From a virus: DNA of 35,619 nucleotides. Shown piece after piece: positions 5,073 to 26,166 of this stretch. The translations under genes and the position numbers were made by a program. The stretch's first letter is position 1. Each line of letters begins with the position of its first letter. Under the pieces are notes generated by a model. The model saw only the letters and a program-made list of their open reading frames with translations. It was not told where the DNA came from and searched no databases. The DNA lies in IMG/VR virus record IMGVR_UViG_3300042292_000631, positions 1 through 35,619 of that record, one strand, 5' to 3'.

Positions 5073-5393
5073 CTACGTGCCTAGTGTGCTGTCGGGATTG
5101 TGCACGCCAGTGACGCTGACCTTCACCACCTCCCCGACGGTCTTGGTGTAGTTTTCGCCAGTCTTAACGTATGTCTTGCTGTCCAGGGTAAATGTAGCAG
5201 GCACAGAGGAACCAGAGCTAATGCCTTCGATCGAAACGTTGTACCGCGGATTGTAGTAGGTGGTAACAGTAGGAGCGGTGTTTACCGTGCCGGGATCGAT
5301 GACGATCTCGGTTACCTCGCCCGTGATGCTCATTGAAATAAACTCCTCAATCCCCGTGATGCTCGTTACTCCCGTAAATCCTTTGTATGGCAT
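5073..5393 (-). CDS. Small tail structural protein (106 aa), paralogue of an early-region protein
   Basis: The ATG is at 5391-5393. The protein is short, Thr/Val/Gly-rich and predicted all-beta, as expected for a tail tube or tube-associated subunit. Its segments EEFISMSITGEVTEI (about 16-30) and NYTKTVGEVVKVSV (about 83-96) have clear counterparts in the protein encoded at 19769-20164, so the phage carries two versions of this fold. It follows another small beta protein (5404-5670) and the tail terminator gene. At 106 residues it is shorter than usual tail tube proteins, so tube subunit is a tentative call. Confidence 0.72.
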   Translation of the reverse strand: MPYKGFTGVTSITGIEEFISMSITGEVTEIVIDPGTVNTAPTVTTYYNPRYNVSIEGISSGSSVPATFTLDSKTYVKTGENYTKTVGEVVKVSVTGVHNPDSTLGT

Positions 5394-5403
5394 ATTATTT
5401 TCC

Positions 5404-5670
5404 TTAAGTGATTGTGCTGAACGTGACCGCTGTGGTTGTGAGCCTGGCAAAATCTGTGTTTGATAAGCGCAGTTCCCGGCGGAAAGTCCCTGCAGTAGCA
5501 ACGATTGGGTGGGTAAAAGTATCGGGGAGAGTTTCAGTCACAGTCTCAATCCTCTTGTACTTCTTAAAATGTTTCACGACTGCGCCGTCTGTTCCCGTGA
5601 TGTAGACGTACTCGTCCGTGTTGCTGATGTTCTGGGAAATTCCAGCCGTCACTCCGTATGTCATCGCCAT
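5404..5670 (-). CDS. Small beta-rich tail protein (88 aa), candidate tail tube component
   Basis: The ATG is at 5668-5670, with an AAGGAAAA tract upstream and a TTGACAC motif 16 bases before the start. The sequence is Thr-rich and beta-like (YVYITGTDGAVV near residue 22, RRELRLSNTDF near 64). It shares the general look of the next gene's product (DEYVYITG versus EEFISMSITG), so the two may be distant paralogues. It lies between the tail terminator gene and the tail assembly genes, where the major tail protein usually lies. Its size is unusually small for that role. Confidence 0.7.
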   Translation of the reverse strand: MAMTYGVTAGISQNISNTDEYVYITGTDGAVVKHFKKYKRIETVTETLPDTFTHPIVATAGTFRRELRLSNTDFARLTTTAVTFSTIT

Positions 5671-5689: not shown

Positions 5690-6088
5690 TCAACTAGGCG
5701 TGACAAAGGCGGTAAATTTAACCGAATCCTCCATTACCTTGTCGTTGCTTCCCGTGCTTTCTTCGCCCAGGTATCCGCCCATAAGAGTGGCACCGGCTAT
5801 GGTAGTTACGGCCGTCAGCTTGGTATTGAGCCAGTCAAAGTTAGTCCTGTGAGCTGTCACTGTGCTGGCTACTTCCAGCGGCGTCATAATTGAACAGGTA
5901 AAAGTAACCTTGCGAGTTGTAGCCAAAGATCCTTCCACAACTGGCACGCTAGACTCAGCGTGAACGATGCAGGCTGGGAGCTGTAACTCCGCAATCCTGT
6001 GCCCGGCCTGAACGTATAGCCCGGCTGGCTTACTGGCTGTGGATAGGTAGGCGGCTAGGCCGTCCTCCGCTGCGAGCCTTAAACTCAT
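5690..6088 (-). CDS. Putative tail terminator/tail completion protein (132 aa)
   Basis: The ATG at 6086-6088 overlaps the previous stop (ATGA). An upstream extension to 6223 would overlap the neighbour fully and is rejected. The protein begins with a helix (AAEDGLAAYLSTA), then has beta strands containing VTFTCSIMTPLEVA and ends KFTAFVTPS. This alpha-plus-beta layout, its length and its place after the head-tail connector and before the tail tube candidates fit tail terminator proteins. Family assignment is by layout rather than by a clear motif. Confidence 0.68.
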   Translation of the reverse strand: MSLRLAAEDGLAAYLSTASKPAGLYVQAGHRIAELQLPACIVHAESSVPVVEGSLATTRKVTFTCSIMTPLEVASTVTAHRTNFDWLNTKLTAVTTIAGATLMGGYLGEESTGSNDKVMEDSVKFTAFVTPS

Positions 6089-6393
6089 CGCACATCCTCT
6101 GGATCTGCCAGGATAAGTGTCGTGACGCCTTGATCGGATTGTACGCCAGTAAGTCTTTTGGGTGATCCGCCCACCGTTACGATCGTCATTAGTGCCGGCA
6201 GGCTGACGGCGGCCGTCAGGCAAACGAACTCCGCATTCTGTGGATTTACAAACCCGCCCATGCCCAGCTCTGCCGTTTGTTCGCTAGGTGTGTAGACGCC
6301 ACGGACGGCGAGGCCGGAGATGGTGGCAGTCGTCGGCATAGCCGAAATCATATCAGCCACCCCTGTGGTCATTAGGGTTTGAATTTCGGTCAC
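6085..6393 (-). CDS. Putative head-tail joining protein (102 aa)
   Basis: This is a short protein beginning with a helix (TEIQTLMTTGVADM) followed by a beta-barrel-like pattern: AVRGVYTPSEQ, PALMTIVTVGGSPKRLTGV and GVTTLILADPED. This strand order resembles the small beta-barrel connectors (lambda gpFII or HK97 gp10-like stopper group). It precedes the tail terminator candidate with a 4-base overlap. It is separated from the capsid gene by the three glycan-enzyme genes, which interrupt what would otherwise be a normal capsid-to-connector order. Confidence 0.62.
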   Translation of the reverse strand: MTEIQTLMTTGVADMISAMPTTATISGLAVRGVYTPSEQTAELGMGGFVNPQNAEFVCLTAAVSLPALMTIVTVGGSPKRLTGVQSDQGVTTLILADPEDVR

Positions 6394-6403
6394 GTCGTTG
6401 GCC

Positions 6404-6958
6404 TTATGTCAAAACTTTCACCCAGCAGTTCTGCTGAAAATCAACAGAGTTAAACGCCTCGGCCACGGCTCGATCTACCCCTGGCCACCCGCACATGTAG
6501 TCGTGCCCGGCAATCACCCCGCCTTTTTTTACCTTGGGCAGCCAAGCAGCAATATCCGCTTTCACGTTCTCGTAGTCGTGAGCGGCATCGATAAAAACAG
6601 AATCCAGACACTGATCGGGAAAGAAGTTAGCGCCCTTGAGACTGGTCATCCGTAGCGGCACGAGCTGGCGGGAGACTGGCTTTACGTTTGCCAGAAACTC
6701 CTCGTATAGCGTGCCGTTCTTAATGCACTCTTCGCCTGTATGTTCCTCGCTACCCAGCCAAGTATCGACAGCGTAGATCTCGATCCGTGGCGATTTGTTC
6801 CAAGCCTCGACAAGCAAAAACGCAGTAGACTTCCCCTTCCAGCTTCCTACCTCCACGATCTTTCCATCCATCGGACAATCGGCCACTAAGCGCCGGTAAA
6901 GATCGGGGAAACTGAACCAGTCCTCTCCGCCAATGTTTAGATGCTGTAGTTTTTCCAC
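6404..6958 (-). CDS. Class I SAM-dependent methyltransferase (Methyltransf_24-like, 184 aa)
   Basis: The enzyme should transfer a methyl group from S-adenosylmethionine. The SAM-binding motif I appears as IVEVGSWKGKST, the motif IV region as SVFIDAAHDYENVKADI, followed by a long helix and GGVIAGHDY. This pattern is typical of the Methyltransf_24 group often found with glycosyltransferases. I chose the GTG at 6956-6958, which overlaps the previous gene by 22 bases. An upstream ATG at 7027 would overlap by 91 bases and add a low-complexity N terminus. It is the last of three glycan-related genes behind the capsid gene, so methylation of a sugar on the virion is the likely job (inference). Confidence 0.85.
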   Translation of the reverse strand: MEKLQHLNIGGEDWFSFPDLYRRLVADCPMDGKIVEVGSWKGKSTAFLLVEAWNKSPRIEIYAVDTWLGSEEHTGEECIKNGTLYEEFLANVKPVSRQLVPLRMTSLKGANFFPDQCLDSVFIDAAHDYENVKADIAAWLPKVKKGGVIAGHDYMCGWPGVDRAVAEAFNSVDFQQNCWVKVLT

Positions 6959-7611
6959 CTTGTTTCCTTGGCCGTGGCCACGCGGGTGGCGTGTTGATGT
7001 TCCTTGTGAAATTCCGGCCCTGGACAAAACGTGCCGCCCTCTGCCCCAATGTTTTGAATGCGACTGACGTGCGGGAATAGTTCGCCCATCCCCGTCCGTT
7101 CACGCACCCGTTGAACCGATCCGTCCCAGAAGTTGCAATCCCAGCCTGGTAACAGATGTCTTTCAAATCGATCGCGCCAGGTTGCCCAGCCCCAAGGCGT
7201 GAACCAGTTCCTAAATCCGCAAGAGTCGTTAGGTGCGGCACCGCCGTGCTGATTGTAGCCAGATACCGTCAGCACTTTTGGGCCAGCGTTCTGCCCTGCC
7301 CACTCGAACCAGCGCAGGCAGTCTGGGCTGGGGACGGTGTCGTCCTCTAGGTGAATGTGATAATCTGAGATTCTGAATCCCAGCTCCATGCAGTAGCGAA
7401 TCATCGATCCGCAGCCCAACCGTTCCTGCATAATCATTGTCTGGATACCGGCTGCCTTGGCAATCTCTGCCAGCTCCTGCGTTTTGTCGGATGGATCTAG
7501 CACAGCCACCACGTCGTACTCACCCACGCCGTCGCACCACGCCAACGCCTTTAATACCTGGGCAAAGTATGTGGGCCGATTGTAGCCCGATATAGTGAGC
7601 GTCTTATCCAT
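6937..7611 (-). CDS. GT-A glycosyltransferase (224 aa)
   Basis: The N terminus LTISGYNRPTYFAQVLKAL (residues 5-23) is the nucleotide-sugar-binding start of a GT-A fold. HIHLEDDTVPSPD (85-97) carries the acidic DXD-type metal-binding site (E89, D90, D91). PWGWATWRDRFE (139-150) is a Trp-rich motif recurrent in related glycosyltransferases of cell-surface and phage loci. There is no membrane segment, so it acts in the cytoplasm. The ATG at 7609-7611 overlaps the end of the large glycosyltransferase upstream. The acceptor is unknown; placement behind the capsid gene suggests a virion protein (inference). Confidence 0.88.
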   Translation of the reverse strand: MDKTLTISGYNRPTYFAQVLKALAWCDGVGEYDVVAVLDPSDKTQELAEIAKAAGIQTMIMQERLGCGSMIRYCMELGFRISDYHIHLEDDTVPSPDCLRWFEWAGQNAGPKVLTVSGYNQHGGAAPNDSCGFRNWFTPWGWATWRDRFERHLLPGWDCNFWDGSVQRVRERTGMGELFPHVSRIQNIGAEGGTFCPGPEFHKEHQHATRVATAKETRWKNYSI

Positions 7612-9751
7612 TTGCCTTGAGCAAGGCGTAGGCCGCCAGATTGCCGCCCGTGCCTTTGTTATTTTGCAAGGCGTCGGCGCCCAATCCTTCCGGCCGAATC
7701 TTTAGAGAGTTGCCACGATTCAGTTCAGGCGTGTTGCAGACGAGCGTGGCTGTTCCGGCCTTCCGCAGTTCCGTGCTCATCATGTAGTCGTCAGCTAAGA
7801 ACTTGGCACGAGCCACGGGACTCAGCCCGGCAAACTCACTTGCGGGAATGGCTGGCCATAGATCGGCTTTCGGCATGTCCGAACGCCGACACATTACGCC
7901 GCCGAATCCTTCCAGAATCTCGGCATGGCCGCCGTGATCTGGGGCGATGGCGTAACCAGTGCTGCCTGTCATAAAAAATCCGCAGACGCCTAACGCCGTT
8001 TTGGGTCTGGTATCTAATTCTTCGGCAAGGGTCTGCAAAAGCAGTGGGCTGTAAAGGATGTCGTCATCCAGCCAGCAAATCTTGTCGTCGGGATCCCCGC
8101 CTACTTCCAGCGGGCCGATAAACTTTGTCGCTGGGCCATAGTCTTTAGTGCGGTGAATTTGCAATTTACCAGCATCGGCCAGCGCTTGTAGCTCTTTTGG
8201 AATATCTCCAAACCGTTCGCCTGTGCGTGCCAGCTTCTCAGGCACGGACAGAATGATCTGATCTGCCGGGCGCGATTGCGCCAGTATGCTTTGGATCGTG
8301 GGCATAATCTTGCCGATGCGGGTGGGCGTAGTGGTCAGCCCGACGATGACGTTACCCGTTTGATCGACAGGATCGGGCAGGCGTGTGGCCCCGGCTGGCA
8401 GTGTGCCTTGTGCCAAAAGATCCATATCCCAGCGCAACGCCGGGACGACCACCTCTTTGCCGCATTTCACAAAAAGCAGGATTCTGCCCAGAGTTTTGCT
8501 GATTGCGTCCTCAACGCTTGTGCAAATGTTTAGGCGTTTGCCGAATTTATCTTCGCCAGGGTTAGTGATAAATAAATGCTGTAAGCCGGCCGGCTGATCG
8601 GATGTGTCCATCATCAGCTTTGATGCGCGAACTACGTCTGCCAGCTCTCCTTGGTAAATGATGGTGATCTGTCCCCAGGCTGCGCGGAACGCCTCTTTCA
8701 GGCATCGATCCGCGTCGGCTGTTTGGCCGACTACCCGGAGCGATTGTTCCAGCAAAAAGTTTGGCATGTGGCCGTACCACTTGGCATCCAAGTTCCAGAC
8801 GACTCCGGCCGGTGGCGTGAGCTTCATAATCATCTGCAGCAGTCGCACTGCCTCGTGATAGTTACCGTCGTCCATCAGTTGCGTCGCGTAGTGACCGTAA
8901 GCCTCGCGGCGTGTGGGCTGAATCATCACTGCTTCACCCAGATATTTTCTGCGTTTGGCAGGATCGGCACACATCACTCCCGCCATGCACAGGAGCTGGT
9001 AGCGTTCCGTGATGCCTAGATCTGGATGCTCCAAGGCAAGGAGCACGGGGCCGATTGCAGTCTGGTAATCGTTCCGCAGAAACGACTCCATGCCGATGTA
9101 GTACCAGTTCATCCCGGCACCTTCTAAGACGCTGTTCAGGATCCGCTTGTTCCGATCGCTGGAATTTTTTTTGCAGTTGTTAGGTGCGTGGACGATGACT
9201 AGGCCGTCGGCCAGTCCGACTTCCATGTTTGGAATTGGCTTTACCCGTTCGTGGATGGATCGCTCCCACACGGCCGGTAGAAACCCATCGGCCTGCCGGC
9301 GGAAGATCCTCTCTCTGCGGTTTTGCCGCATTCCACTGTTTTGCACGTCGTACCGGGTGACTAGAATGTCCCAGCCTTTGTCGGCCTTTTCCCGTTCCTC
9401 AATAACGTGCCGGTGGATCTTGGCCTGGTCGCCGTCGAACAAGTCATCGCAATCTGCCCAGATGACGTACTTCCCTTTTGCCAGGTTAAACGCCTGATTC
9501 CTAGCAGCCGCAAAATTATCGATATGAGGCCATTCCCTGTTCTCTGGGCTGTTCTGGTATTCCCCCCAGACTAAAGCCTCGCCAGCGGCCTCCTGAGCGC
9601 AAATACGCACACTGTGCGCCTCATTTTTACCTACTGCCGCCACGACGACGACCTCGTCCCATAGGCCACGGGCGGATTGAATAAGGCGTTTGAGAATGTC
9701 GCCCTCGTTGGGGCCGACGATTAAAGCAAGAGACACTAGGGGGTTATTCAT
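7604..9751 (-). CDS. Two-domain glycosyltransferase (GT2-like N terminus, TPR-like middle, second GT-A domain; 715 aa)
   Basis: Residues 5-190 are a family-2-like glycosyltransferase: SLALIVGPNEGDILKRLI at the start, then the acidic motif YVIWADCDD at about 95-103. Residues about 215-360 form helical tetratricopeptide-like repeats (for example EAYGHYATQLMDDGNYHEAV). Residues about 465-690 are a second catalytic unit with GLTTTPTRIGKIMPTIQSIL, DYGPATKFIGPL (538-549) and CWLDDDILYSP (559-569), then a downstream acidic FLADDYMMSTELRKAG. There is no membrane helix. Such bifunctional enzymes can add two sugars in sequence. The gene begins 121 bases after the capsid stop, behind a hairpin, and overlaps the next glycosyltransferase. 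Confidence 0.88.
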   Translation of the reverse strand: MNNPLVSLALIVGPNEGDILKRLIQSARGLWDEVVVVAAVGKNEAHSVRICAQEAAGEALVWGEYQNSPENREWPHIDNFAAARNQAFNLAKGKYVIWADCDDLFDGDQAKIHRHVIEEREKADKGWDILVTRYDVQNSGMRQNRRERIFRRQADGFLPAVWERSIHERVKPIPNMEVGLADGLVIVHAPNNCKKNSSDRNKRILNSVLEGAGMNWYYIGMESFLRNDYQTAIGPVLLALEHPDLGITERYQLLCMAGVMCADPAKRRKYLGEAVMIQPTRREAYGHYATQLMDDGNYHEAVRLLQMIMKLTPPAGVVWNLDAKWYGHMPNFLLEQSLRVVGQTADADRCLKEAFRAAWGQITIIYQGELADVVRASKLMMDTSDQPAGLQHLFITNPGEDKFGKRLNICTSVEDAISKTLGRILLFVKCGKEVVVPALRWDMDLLAQGTLPAGATRLPDPVDQTGNVIVGLTTTPTRIGKIMPTIQSILAQSRPADQIILSVPEKLARTGERFGDIPKELQALADAGKLQIHRTKDYGPATKFIGPLEVGGDPDDKICWLDDDILYSPLLLQTLAEELDTRPKTALGVCGFFMTGSTGYAIAPDHGGHAEILEGFGGVMCRRSDMPKADLWPAIPASEFAGLSPVARAKFLADDYMMSTELRKAGTATLVCNTPELNRGNSLKIRPEGLGADALQNNKGTGGNLAAYALLKANG

Positions 9752-9768: not shown

Positions 9769-9798
9769 GCCCGGACGCACCCCCCGATGCGTCCGGGC
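9769..9798 (-). terminator. Strong hairpin after the capsid gene (terminator or attenuator)
   Basis: A perfect 11-bp stem (9769-9779 with 9788-9798) and an 8-base loop lies 20 bases past the capsid stop in the direction of transcription. Only TTTCCC follows, so the U tract is weak. It probably ends most capsid transcripts or protects their 3' end, letting a fraction through to the glycosyltransferase genes. That would keep enzyme levels below capsid levels. Confidence 0.7.
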
Positions 9799-9818: not shown

Positions 9819-10697
9819 TTACACGATCCGAACAAGTGAGCTGGCCGATCCCTTTGCCGCACCGTAGATGAGGCAATAGGTGCGCTGCACGCTGCCGGTC
9901 ACGAGCGAGTAGCTCTCGCGAACCTGGAGCGACAGACCGCTCTTAGCTTCCGTCACGTTGGCAACGGTGCCGCTGAACTCAACATTCGGGATCTCGGGCA
10001 GACGAGCCGCCACGATGATCGCTTCCTGTTGGGCGATGAATCCTTTCGATACCGCAGAGGGCAACGAAGCGTAGTTAAATACGTTCACGCCGTGCACTTC
10101 GCCGATGCTGGATCCGCCGACGAGGTCGGTGGAGCGCTGGCCGTTAGCAACAACCACGGAATCTTTAGAAAGATTGGCGTAGTTGGTAGGGCTGAGAACG
10201 GCGAACCGTCCACCCATAGGTGCCTTTGCGCTGTTGAGTTGAGCCGCGATGTCGACGATGGAACCAAAGGTCACTGCACCGGCCGCGATGGTGGCGGTCG
10301 TGGTGTAGTTGCTGTTGGTGACCAACGCGAGAACGGTATCAACCATGCTCTTTCCAAGGGCGTGGGCCGCTTGCGCTGCAAAGCGCTCGACCAAGTTAAC
10401 CGAGGAGCTGGTGCGCTCGTCATCATTCAAAGCGTACGAGACGTGTTTGAAATTTGAGAGGGTCACGGCGACATCCGTCTGAGTTGCATCGCCAGCCACG
10501 TATCCGGCCGTGCTGGAATAATCCGAGGCAGACTGGATCGAGACGGTGTGGGTTATGATCGCGTCACCCTTGCGGGCGGTAGCGTCCGAGAAATCGGAAA
10601 CGCCAGAAGCGATCCATGAGTAGTTTTCAACCAGCAATTCGAGAGCACGCTGTGCTACGACTTTGCCGTTGCTCGTTGTTGCGAGGCTATTTGCCAT
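9819..10697 (-). CDS. Major capsid protein (292 aa)
   Basis: This is the shell-forming HK97-fold protein. The sequence begins MANSLATTSNGKVVAQRALE and has many Ser/Thr/Val/Ala residues. It carries the motif typical of the P22/HK97-fold group near residue 200, GEVHGVNVFNYASLP, in which a Gly-Val-aromatic turn precedes a strand and proline. The upstream sequence has a good AAGGA-type ribosome binding site (AGAAGGATAGAACT before the ATG). It follows the protease-scaffold gene by 21 bases. A hairpin terminator-like element follows it. Its high Ser/Thr content offers many possible O-glycosylation sites for the adjacent glycosyltransferases (inference). Confidence 0.93.
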   Translation of the reverse strand: MANSLATTSNGKVVAQRALELLVENYSWIASGVSDFSDATARKGDAIITHTVSIQSASDYSSTAGYVAGDATQTDVAVTLSNFKHVSYALNDDERTSSSVNLVERFAAQAAHALGKSMVDTVLALVTNSNYTTTATIAAGAVTFGSIVDIAAQLNSAKAPMGGRFAVLSPTNYANLSKDSVVVANGQRSTDLVGGSSIGEVHGVNVFNYASLPSAVSKGFIAQQEAIIVAARLPEIPNVEFSGTVANVTEAKSGLSLQVRESYSLVTGSVQRTYCLIYGAAKGSASSLVRIV

Positions 10698-11627: not shown

Positions 11628-12143
11628 TTAGTTGCGTGAGCTTACGGGGCTGGGAAAGTATGGCTGATAAGCGACCGGCGTTCCGCCTGATGGTGGCGGA
11701 GTTTGATTGCTATTGATGGCAGTCATAATTGCGTTAGACAGCTCAACGGCATACTGCTTTGTTTTCATGGTTAGCGTGTGGTTGTTCATGCCGCCGAACT
11801 GAAGGGATACATACCAATCATAAGTAAGTGTTTTCTTAATAACGTACAAACCAAAGACTGCAAATATACCACCAGCGACGTAGCTGCGTGTGCAAAGAAA
11901 TGTCGTGGCAAGAATCGCAGCTATAAAGAAAAGCAACATCCCAAAAAACGTGGAAACGCCATCCTCTTTTTGATAGTAAGAAACCCCAATTACTTGAGGC
12001 ACGGAGAAGGCTTGATTATGCGGAGCACCAAAAACGATCATTTTCTGCGTCACACGAATTGTGCCGTCATCATAAAAGACAGCCTCTGTGGATTCTTCGT
12101 TTGGAGTTAGGTCAGGCTGGTCAAACTGTATCCTACTGCTCAT
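11628..12143 (-). CDS. DUF6232-like membrane protein inserted in the head operon (171 aa)
   Basis: An N-terminal part contains FYDDGTIRVTQKMIVFG (about 23-39) and a strand with VPQVIGVSYYQ. Two closely spaced hydrophobic segments follow at about 66-85 and 88-102 (FFGMLLFFIAAILATTFL and VAGGIFAVFGLYVI), then a soluble tail with a Pro-rich end. The layout, a small soluble domain followed by two membrane helices, matches the DUF6232 family of uncharacterised bacterial proteins. It lies between portal and protease genes, where no membrane protein is required. It is probably a moron acting on the host membrane. The DNA is more AT-rich than its neighbours and a hairpin sits at its 5' side. Confidence 0.7.
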   Translation of the reverse strand: MSSRIQFDQPDLTPNEESTEAVFYDDGTIRVTQKMIVFGAPHNQAFSVPQVIGVSYYQKEDGVSTFFGMLLFFIAAILATTFLCTRSYVAGGIFAVFGLYVIKKTLTYDWYVSLQFGGMNNHTLTMKTKQYAVELSNAIMTAINSNQTPPPSGGTPVAYQPYFPSPVSSRN

Positions 12144-19584: not shown

Positions 19585-19772
19585 TTTTTGACCAATCCTT
19601 CCAACGCTTTCTTAATCACGTACTCAATCACTGCCTCTTGATCTTTCTTTAACTGCTTGAGCCCAAATGCGTGCAACGCCTTGGCCGTCTTTTCGTCGTA
19701 GGTCACGTCCACCAGAACCTGCTTCGGCGCAGGCCGTGCTTTGCCAAAAGTAATTTTTCCTAGATCCTTCAT
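19581..19772 (-). CDS. Small hypothetical protein (63 aa)
   Basis: The ATG at 19770-19772 overlaps the previous stop (ATGA) and has AGGAG nine bases upstream, so a longer reading to 19814 is not needed. The C-terminal half is helical and Lys-rich (KQLKKDQEAVIEYVIKKA), the N-terminal half Pro/Val-rich with YDEKTAKALHAF. It overlaps the primase-helicase gene start by four bases. The helix-turn pattern at the end recalls ribbon-helix-helix or small replication accessory proteins, without certainty. Confidence 0.72.
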   Translation of the reverse strand: MKDLGKITFGKARPAPKQVLVDVTYDEKTAKALHAFGLKQLKKDQEAVIEYVIKKALEGLVKK

Positions 19773-20164
19773 TTGCGTTTTCTCCTTTTTTTGCGTGGCT
19801 TCACTTCCTTCCAAATTTCAAAGTCCTTGTCGCAATCGACGGACAACAACATAAGCCGCTGATACAGCCAGCCGCCCCAGCTCCACCGGGCAATCGTGTG
19901 GCTGGCTATGTCTCCTAAGTAATAAAACAAAATTGAAAGCAGTTTTATTTTTGGATTACAAATGTGAATAGGAGAATGAGTGGTATCAGTTGAAATCTTA
20001 AGCACATTACCTGCAGTCTTTGTGTACGATCGGGTAGTAGTTAAATATCCCTTTACGCTAGGCTTAAGGGAACTGTTTGGGGCGCTGCAATCGTGGGCAA
20101 TTTCTGTACATTCACCCGAAATTGTCATCGAAATAAATTCCTCCGGCTTTACGTTCTTCCTCAT
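19769..20164 (-). CDS. Chimeric protein: tail-protein-like N terminus fused to an early-region protein (131 aa)
   Basis: Residues 8-70 match the small tail protein of 5073-5393 in order: EEFISMTISGECTEI against EEFISMSITGEVTEI, and SYTKTAGNVLKIS against NYTKTVGEVVKVS. The nucleotide sequences are also visibly related at the first block. After a short linker, residues about 82-131 (LGDIASHTIARWSWGGWLYQRL onward, in pieces) look like an unrelated small phage protein ending in PRKKRRKRK. The first part is AT-rich, the second is not. This suggests an ectopic copy of a tail gene that lost its stop and fused to an early gene. Start and stop overlap the neighbours by four bases. Confidence 0.75.
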   Translation of the reverse strand: MRKNVKPEEFISMTISGECTEIAHDCSAPNSSLKPSVKGYLTTTRSYTKTAGNVLKISTDTTHSPIHICNPKIKLLSILFYYLGDIASHTIARWSWGGWLYQRLMLLSVDCDKDFEIWKEVKPRKKRRKRK

Positions 20165-25065: not shown

Positions 25066-26166
25066 ATGGCGTATTCTTACCAGAAACGCGGCAGCCCTTG
25101 GTTCTTTATTCGTTTTAAAGACCCGACTGGAAAATGGCGCAGTAAAAGCACCCGCTACCGAATCGACAATACGCTGCATCGCGCGAAGGCAACGGCAGAG
25201 GCCGCCAGAATTGGAGTGAACGAAAAGCGAGCGGATAGTGGCCACGATTGGGTTGATGATTTGATCGAAAATCATCCCGTTTCCCCTCTCACAAAAGTGT
25301 ATTACAGGAATTGCTGGCGTCATCTTGCTCGTTTTATTAGTGAGAAAAAAATAACTCTGCAAGCGTTTTCTCCATCCGATTGTGAAATTTATTTGAAGTG
25401 GCGCCAAAGCCTCCCGCGCACGTCCGGCGGCAAAGCAGGCAGGAACCAAGCCTGCCAAGATATTAAGATTCTTAAATGGATTCACCGCCAAGGCCGACTG
25501 CTGGGCAAGATGGATTCTGTCGCGCTTCTGGATTACCGAATTAAGCGCGGGCCGATCTCCCGCGTTAAACCTGTCTTTTCTGACAATGAGATTAAAATCA
25601 CCCGGAAAGCCTTGGCCGTGGAAGGCGTGCCCGAATGGATGCGAATTAGCTTCGAGATTGCCCTGGCCACGGGGTGCAGATTGCGAGAGACGCAGATTCC
25701 TCTGGATTGCGTGGATTTGAAAAATCGTGTGCTGACTTTCCCGACACCCAAAGGTGGAGCTGGCAAATCCTTCAGCATTCCCATACCGGCCGCCATCGAA
25801 CCCATGCTCGCCAAGATGAAGGCCGAGGGGCGCGAGGTCACTTGCGAAGTCCCCCGCACGCGAGCCTCGCTTTGCTGGCGTCGCCTGCTCGATATTTGCG
25901 GGCTTAAGCGTCATTGTTTTCATTCGCTCCGGGTAACCCGAGTGACTCGACTGCGGCTTTCAGGCTGTTCTCAATCTGTCGCCATGCGACTCGTGAATCA
26001 CTCTTCGACGTTAGTTCACGAGCTTTATCAGCGGCACTGCGTAGATGATCTCCGCGATGCAGTGAATTTAGGCCAGTCGTCCGTATCAGTCGCCACTGAT
26101 CAAAATCACCTGGAATTACCTTACCCGCGATCAGTGGGAATCCAGGCATCGCCTGCATTTGCTTAA
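25066..26166 (+). CDS. int: Tyrosine integrase (366 aa)
   Basis: The enzyme recombines attP with attB. The C-terminal catalytic set is complete: Arg205 in ATGCRLRETQI, Lys234 as the likely beta-hairpin Lys, His286 and Arg289 in HSLRVTRVTRL, His312 in LVNHSS and the nucleophile Tyr321 in HELYQRH. An N-terminal arm-binding segment (YSYQKRGSPWFFIRF) and a core-binding helical domain (about 60-160) precede it. It is one of two plus-strand genes and lies next to attP. No strong ribosome binding site precedes the ATG. Its last 87 codons are overlapped antisense by a second gene. Confidence 0.95.
   Translation: MAYSYQKRGSPWFFIRFKDPTGKWRSKSTRYRIDNTLHRAKATAEAARIGVNEKRADSGHDWVDDLIENHPVSPLTKVYYRNCWRHLARFISEKKITLQAFSPSDCEIYLKWRQSLPRTSGGKAGRNQACQDIKILKWIHRQGRLLGKMDSVALLDYRIKRGPISRVKPVFSDNEIKITRKALAVEGVPEWMRISFEIALATGCRLRETQIPLDCVDLKNRVLTFPTPKGGAGKSFSIPIPAAIEPMLAKMKAEGREVTCEVPRTRASLCWRRLLDICGLKRHCFHSLRVTRVTRLRLSGCSQSVAMRLVNHSSTLVHELYQRHCVDDLRDAVNLGQSSVSVATDQNHLELPYPRSVGIQASPAFA

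Follow-up and report, generated by a model that had tools for sequence, protein, structure and literature searches.

A putative glycan-assembly cassette with exchangeable finishing enzymes behind the major capsid gene of an uncultured lake phage

The stretch of viral DNA analysed here (IMG/VR record IMGVR_UViG_3300042292_000631, 35,619 nt, hereafter the window) carries on its minus strand a lambda-type head module in the order TerL, portal (PF05136, 1.3e-48), protease/scaffold, major capsid protein (MCP), GT1, GT2, MT, and Hc1. The MCP gene (9819..10697, minus strand; phrog_283, 1.4e-24) encodes an HK97-fold protein, whose AlphaFold2 (AF2) model (pTM 0.73) has as its top Foldseek matches HK97-fold capsids, including that of phage Che8 (PDB 8e16). 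Behind it, on the same strand, lie GT1 (7604..9751, 715 aa, ATG start; PF00535, 2.7e-8), GT2 (6937..7611, 224 aa, ATG start), and MT, a class I methyltransferase of the Methyltransf_24 family (6404..6958, 184 aa, GTG start; PF13578, 6.5e-19). They are followed by the head-closure gene Hc1 (6085..6393, minus strand; phrog_82, 0.001) and, in a short overlap with it, by the next head-tail connector gene (5690..6088, minus strand), called as an open reading frame from an internal ATG, for which a phage-family profile search gave no match. The MT reading frame as listed (6404-7027) was over-extended through a TTG; its start is likely the GTG at 6958, which has AAGGA ahead of it and from which the relatives align, and the overlap of GT2 with MT is therefore 22 nt, next to 8 nt between GT1 and GT2. 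The coordinates and family profiles thus confirm what the initial annotation had read here, two glycosyltransferases and a methyltransferase overlapping one another between the capsid and connector genes. Median dN/dS values of 0.04-0.06 for GT1, 0.17 for GT2, and 0.03 for MT indicate purifying selection, so these are not chance reading frames. No DNA near-identical to the window was found among phage records.

GT1 consists of a SunS-like part with a GT-A and a TPR domain (aa 1-360), a GT-A-like remnant (361-460), and a C-terminal GT-A-like domain (461-715). The catalytic GT-A domain (9152..9751, minus strand) carries the motifs WPHIDNFAAAR and DCDD, and the TPR domain (8672..9151, minus strand), recognized from the AF2 model and the fold match, is presumed to recognize the acceptor. 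Residues ~361-460 look like what is left of a GT-A domain, as judged by sequence, and their counterpart in four more distant loci (L039, L040, L066, and L067) is a more complete one. The C-terminal domain (7607..8371, minus strand; motifs DDD and ADDY) was poorly modelled (pLDDT <50), the AF2 model being usable over residues 1-460, and its assignment therefore comes from sequence only. Every relative aligned has an intact N-terminal motif (DxDD) and C-terminal motif (DDD, ADDY/F), which bears out the earlier reading of GT1 as an enzyme with two catalytic domains, the second one being a predicted GT-A.

The N-terminal half of the GT1 model matched the SunS/ThuS structures 7msp, 7msk, and 7msn with Z scores of 21.8, 20.6, and 20.6 over 271-277 residues; the next-best structures reached Z 16.9 and covered the GT-A part only, and the matches ranking below SunS include teichoic-acid and polysaccharide enzymes. 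Since SunS and ThuS belong to the peptide S-glycosyltransferases, this match of the model is most naturally read as pointing to a protein acceptor. At the level of family profiles, GT1 gave no match to the SunS-type family TIGR04195 of NCBIfam, and the L067 homologue scored 19.7 bits against a cut-off of 350. A search for GT1 homologues in cultured phages returned none, and bacterial homologues in Clostridia and Planctomycetota share 22-47% identity, mainly over the N-terminal part.

GT2 resembles GnT-I and POMGnT1: it scored 24.3 bits against the PF03071 GNT-I profile (E 1.6e-5), just below the cut-off of 25.4, and its profile matched PDB entries 2am3 (2.1e-6) and 5ggf (4.4e-6). Its E-D-D metal motif (EDD) is invariant in the aligned relatives. 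Among cultured phages only Microbacterium phage Magritte has a matching protein (27%), encoded near a UDP-glucose dehydrogenase gene upstream of the terminase. MT reached 69.2 bits against PF13578 (gathering cut-off 26.3), and 6g7d (1e-8) was the one solved structure related to it at E <= 0.001; we take this entry to be the mycobacterial mannoside methyltransferase MeT1. For MeT1, a sugar-blocking activity is described (PMC9883506). MT also matches phrog_2675, labelled DNA methyltransferase, a label that we consider misleading given that the motif IV region reads FIDAAHDY and not (D/N/S)PP(Y/F). No transmembrane segment was detected in GT1, GT2, or MT (maximum Kyte-Doolittle 19-mer <=1.34).

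Relatives were collected as metagenome virus contigs from GT1 searches and from MCP searches, as overlapping sets. A GT1 homologue lies within 800 nt of MCP for 78/78 distinct MCP sequences that have 700 nt or more of downstream DNA, part of this set having been found through GT1 itself, and equally in 32/32 loci with downstream DNA from the last MCP scan. The spacing from MCP to GT1 is 67-90 nt in most relatives and 123 nt in a few. Adjacency is not absolute, since in the L066/L067 group Hc1 follows MCP directly and GT1 comes second; in L067, GT1 is followed by a Methyltransf_23 gene and then by a gene without a Pfam match. In L039 and L040, whose MCPs show ~25% identity, a GT1 homologue again stands behind MCP, fused in L039 to a Methyltransf_24 domain.

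The interval between GT1 and Hc1 behaves as an exchangeable slot, with Hc1 as its right border in relatives. We compared 53 distinct contigs with a complete GT1-to-Hc1 interval, merging the script labels GT and GT2, and found glycan-type enzymes in at least eight gene sets, some of them with sugar-nucleotide-type epimerases. GT2+MT24, the arrangement of the window, occupies 26 of the 53 slots; GT2+FkbM-like and FkbM (PF05050) alone account for 8 each, GT2+GT7+epimerase for 5, and GT34-like alone for 2. Single contigs carry GT2+GT7, Anp1-like+FkbM-like+epimerase, FkbM-like+GT with PF04488+GT2+MT24, and GT2 plus an unassigned part. Two of the FkbM-like groups were named by a weak pairwise match and a K-D-(I/V)-E-G-A-E motif, not by Pfam. 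The block described from the window thus does recur beside the capsid genes of its relatives, with GT1 as its constant member. The methyl cap proposed in the initial annotation stands for about half of these phages, which have the window-type MT, while the others carry FkbM-like, GT34-like, GT7, or epimerase genes instead.

Some of these sets have been swapped among phages with ~95% or higher identity in the flanking proteins. In two relatives (L009 and L010), MT is replaced, and DNA identity is 51-53% there against 85-93% on both sides; two GT2 alleles show ~75% identity around position 7200 against 91-94% in the surrounding DNA. Within GT1, the C-terminal domain varies largely independently of the TPR and middle parts (rank correlation 0.22-0.27); in L017 it is 95% identical and the TPR domain 48%. 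This domain is exchanged independently of the N-terminal half, and the cargo is replaced, so that the parts for starting and for finishing a glycan change hands independently. A first enzyme that stays the same, with varying finishing enzymes behind it, suggests particles with a changeable sugar layer.

The gap between MCP and GT1 holds an RNA hairpin (9769..9798, minus strand) with a covarying stem of 9-11 bp and invariant ATCGGGGGGT loop/closing pairs. Its 16 distinct versions show many compensatory changes in the stem, and copies with a stem of at least 8 bp occur, among the matches listed, only at MCP|GT1 junctions of the window's phage family. L066/L067, L039/L040, and the prophage loci lack the exact motif, and an Rfam search with the hairpin returned no family. 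The hairpin may simply control translation of GT1 or cause attenuation after MCP, and early C runs of GT1 could pair with its G-run. Tentatively, and with odds that we would place well below even, these elements could form a capsid serotype system, in which a constant SunS-like initiator acts on the capsid, the slot enzymes set the outer sugar, and the hairpin ties glycosyltransferase production to that of the capsid, perhaps by means of a phage protein that binds the invariant loop.

Profile matches to the MCP occur in 28/388 Verrucomicrobiota genomes, compared with 1/398 in the phylum of Aggregatibacter and 1/294 in the phylum of a planctomycete, and the only cultured MCP relative found is Verrucomicrobia phage P8625 (26%). 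The host is therefore probably a member of the Verrucomicrobiota, judging by these profile matches, and not an actinobacterium. The carriers of the cassette are uncultured phages from lakes. With free-living lake bacteria as hosts, evasion of antibodies, one of the purposes first suggested, seems unlikely. The cassette is absent from 10 examined Verrucomicrobiota prophage regions with related head genes and, judged by annotation, from P8625. It thus comes on top of this type of head, although it is constant in its own clade, in agreement with the earlier statement that assembly does not need it.

As for the acceptor, the Ser/Thr-rich capsid protein had been named as the obvious candidate. MCPs of carriers contain on average 19.8% Ser+Thr versus 15.1% in non-carrier relatives (p 9e-6, uncorrected for phylogeny); the carrier MCPs are largely one clade. 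Carrier-specific Ser/Thr positions are 9, 49, 53, 61, 133, 136, 143, 180, and 287, and residues 49-61 lie in a long beta-hairpin of the AF2 model, which we infer to be the E-loop. The enrichment lends some support to the MCP as probable acceptor, but tail-region and fibre-type proteins of the window have up to 24-27% Ser+Thr compared with 20.9% in its MCP, the carriers are of largely common descent, and GT1-MCP co-divergence is unspecific. This co-divergence was rejected as acceptor evidence, being no stronger than that of GT1 with the portal or the protease, and an S-linked glycan on a conserved MCP Cys was rejected too, the single MCP Cys being absent in most relatives.

The reading that we prefer, with a probability of roughly 0.6, is that the genes are a cassette for building a glycan on a virion protein, most probably on the MCP made just upstream. 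The cassette would be expressed late. The SunS-like GT-A domain of GT1 would place the first sugar on a protein side chain, probably Ser/Thr, picked by the TPR domain; the C-terminal GT-A-like domain would add another sugar, GT2 would extend the chain, and MT would O-methylate an outer sugar. With the protein-directed half constant and the finishing half in an exchangeable slot, related phages would then carry different outer glycans. Swapping of finishing sets among phages with nearly the same capsid would imply diversifying selection on capsid sugars outside an animal host, and it raises the question of what recognizes a phage capsid in lake water, be it grazers, particle adsorption, host glycan-binding proteins, or other phages. 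A SunS-like initiator such as GT1 is also a candidate tool for soluble protein glycosylation.

In the proposal of a glycan on the capsid, the enzymes, the gene order, and the Che8 parallel favour a virion glycan, and it is the acceptor that may differ: it is possible, if unlikely, that the sugar goes onto a different protein of the virion (tail tube, collar, or fibre) and that late expression is the only reason for the cassette to lie in the head operon. The higher Ser+Thr content of tail-region and fibre-type proteins would suit this, as would the glycosylation of the tail tube along with the capsid reported for mycobacteriophages in PMC12619734 and PMC12363180; against it stand the position of the cassette beside MCP or MCP-Hc1 in every relative and the Ser/Thr enrichment of carrier over non-carrier MCPs. 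Modification of a host surface polysaccharide, leading to serotype conversion or superinfection exclusion, we regard as decidedly unlikely. Some prophage glycosyltransferases are known to act in this way, an integrase gene (PF00589, 4.9e-6) is present in the window, and the teichoic-acid and polysaccharide enzymes rank after SunS among the fold matches; however, the best match is a peptide glycosyltransferase, the cassette has no membrane or lipid-carrier component and lies inside the head operon, not beside the integrase, and the examined prophages of the same head family are without it. A host protein or defence factor as the target of the enzymes during infection is highly improbable, since an early-gene location would be expected and the cassette lies between MCP and head closure in relatives, even though the TPR-containing GT1 resembles peptide glycosyltransferases and cargo swapping would also suit an arms race. 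DNA hypermodification by glycosylation or methylation is scarcely credible: the phrog_2675 label is countered by the MT motif IV region, by the lack, among those ORFs of the window that were scanned, of a gene for hydroxymethylation or any other base modification, and by the presence of Methyltransf_24 in the Che8 virion-glycosylation locus.

The decoration of a virion protein, as preferred here, has several partial parallels. With SunS and ThuS of the glycocin systems, GT1 shares the GT-A plus TPR architecture and the fold, but it falls below the family score cut-off and lies in a head operon, and SunS modifies Cys (PDB title) whereas the MCP has no conserved Cys. From a Gtr serotype-conversion cassette the window differs in having three soluble genes only, without a membrane flippase or a polytopic glycosyltransferase. 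Gene swapping in metagenomic islands, with divergent genes, glycosyltransferases included, at fixed places in near-identical phages, is described for environmental phages (PMC7468147), but the glycosyltransferases are treated there under superimmunity and anti-restriction and not as a capsid-linked slot. A064R of PBCV-1 is the analogue known in most detail for a GT-GT-methyltransferase that finishes a capsid glycan. Together with A061L it adds terminal O-methylated sugars to the glycan of the major capsid protein, and mutants are antigenic variants (PMC9614988). By description, the multi-domain GT-GT-methyltransferase layout is alike, although PBCV-1 is a eukaryotic algal virus with N-glycans and an unrelated capsid.

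Among phages, PMC12619734, PMC12363180, and PMC11256854 present Che8, Corndog, and Myrna as mycobacteriophages with virion-glycosylation loci (citing Freeman et al. 2023), and PMC11256854 and PMC12363180 report the Che8 capsid as glycosylated. The Che8 genome ends with gp108 (a fusion of PF00535 GT2 and PF13578 Methyltransf_24/TylF), gp109 (GT2), and gp110 (GT25), and its locus therefore combines a GT2-family enzyme with Methyltransf_24, like the PF00535 and PF13578 genes of the window. Unlike Che8, with genes 108-110 at the genome end, the window has its cassette in the head operon; gp108-110 gave no significant match to the GT1, GT2, and MT profiles, and Pfam recognized in them no TPR domain such as that of GT1. 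We found no description of an exchange slot in the mycobacteriophage glycosylation loci. The same kinds of enzymes are thus encoded by non-homologous genes at a different place, and the cassette may be regarded as a form of virion glycosylation by analogy, not homology, with a putative acceptor. To our knowledge, the phages whose own enzymes have been shown to glycosylate the virion are few, and most of them infect actinobacteria; the genomes compared here point to such a system across a whole clade of phages of the Verrucomicrobiota, a mostly uncultured phylum.

The gap between the major capsid protein gene and the 715-aa glycosyltransferase gene GT1 carries an RNA hairpin (9769-9798, minus strand) that occurs in 16 distinct, covarying versions, with ATCGGGGGGT invariant throughout. 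Compared against Rfam, the hairpin had no match, and among the matches listed it is specific to its phage family. GT2, the GnT-I-like glycosyltransferase gene (6937-7611, minus strand), exists as two alleles with about 75% DNA identity around 7200, in phages otherwise about 91-94% identical in that region.

Between the methyltransferase and head-closure genes, the related contigs L127, L129 and L138 share a stretch (L127 11361-11675) of about 310 nt devoid of coding-strand ORFs of at least 60 aa. An optional gene between portal and protease (11628-12143, minus strand; weak DUF6232, hydrophobic segment) is carried by the window, L057 and L068, with a distant version in L066 and L067, and is missing from most relatives.

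Two minus-strand genes (19769-20164 and 5073-5501) encode a common EEFISMxIxGExTEI-like stretch, as if a structural-protein segment had been duplicated beyond the structural operon. Finally, a tyrosine integrase gene (25066-26166, plus strand; PF00589, 4.9e-6, just under the cut-off) makes it probable that the phage is temperate.
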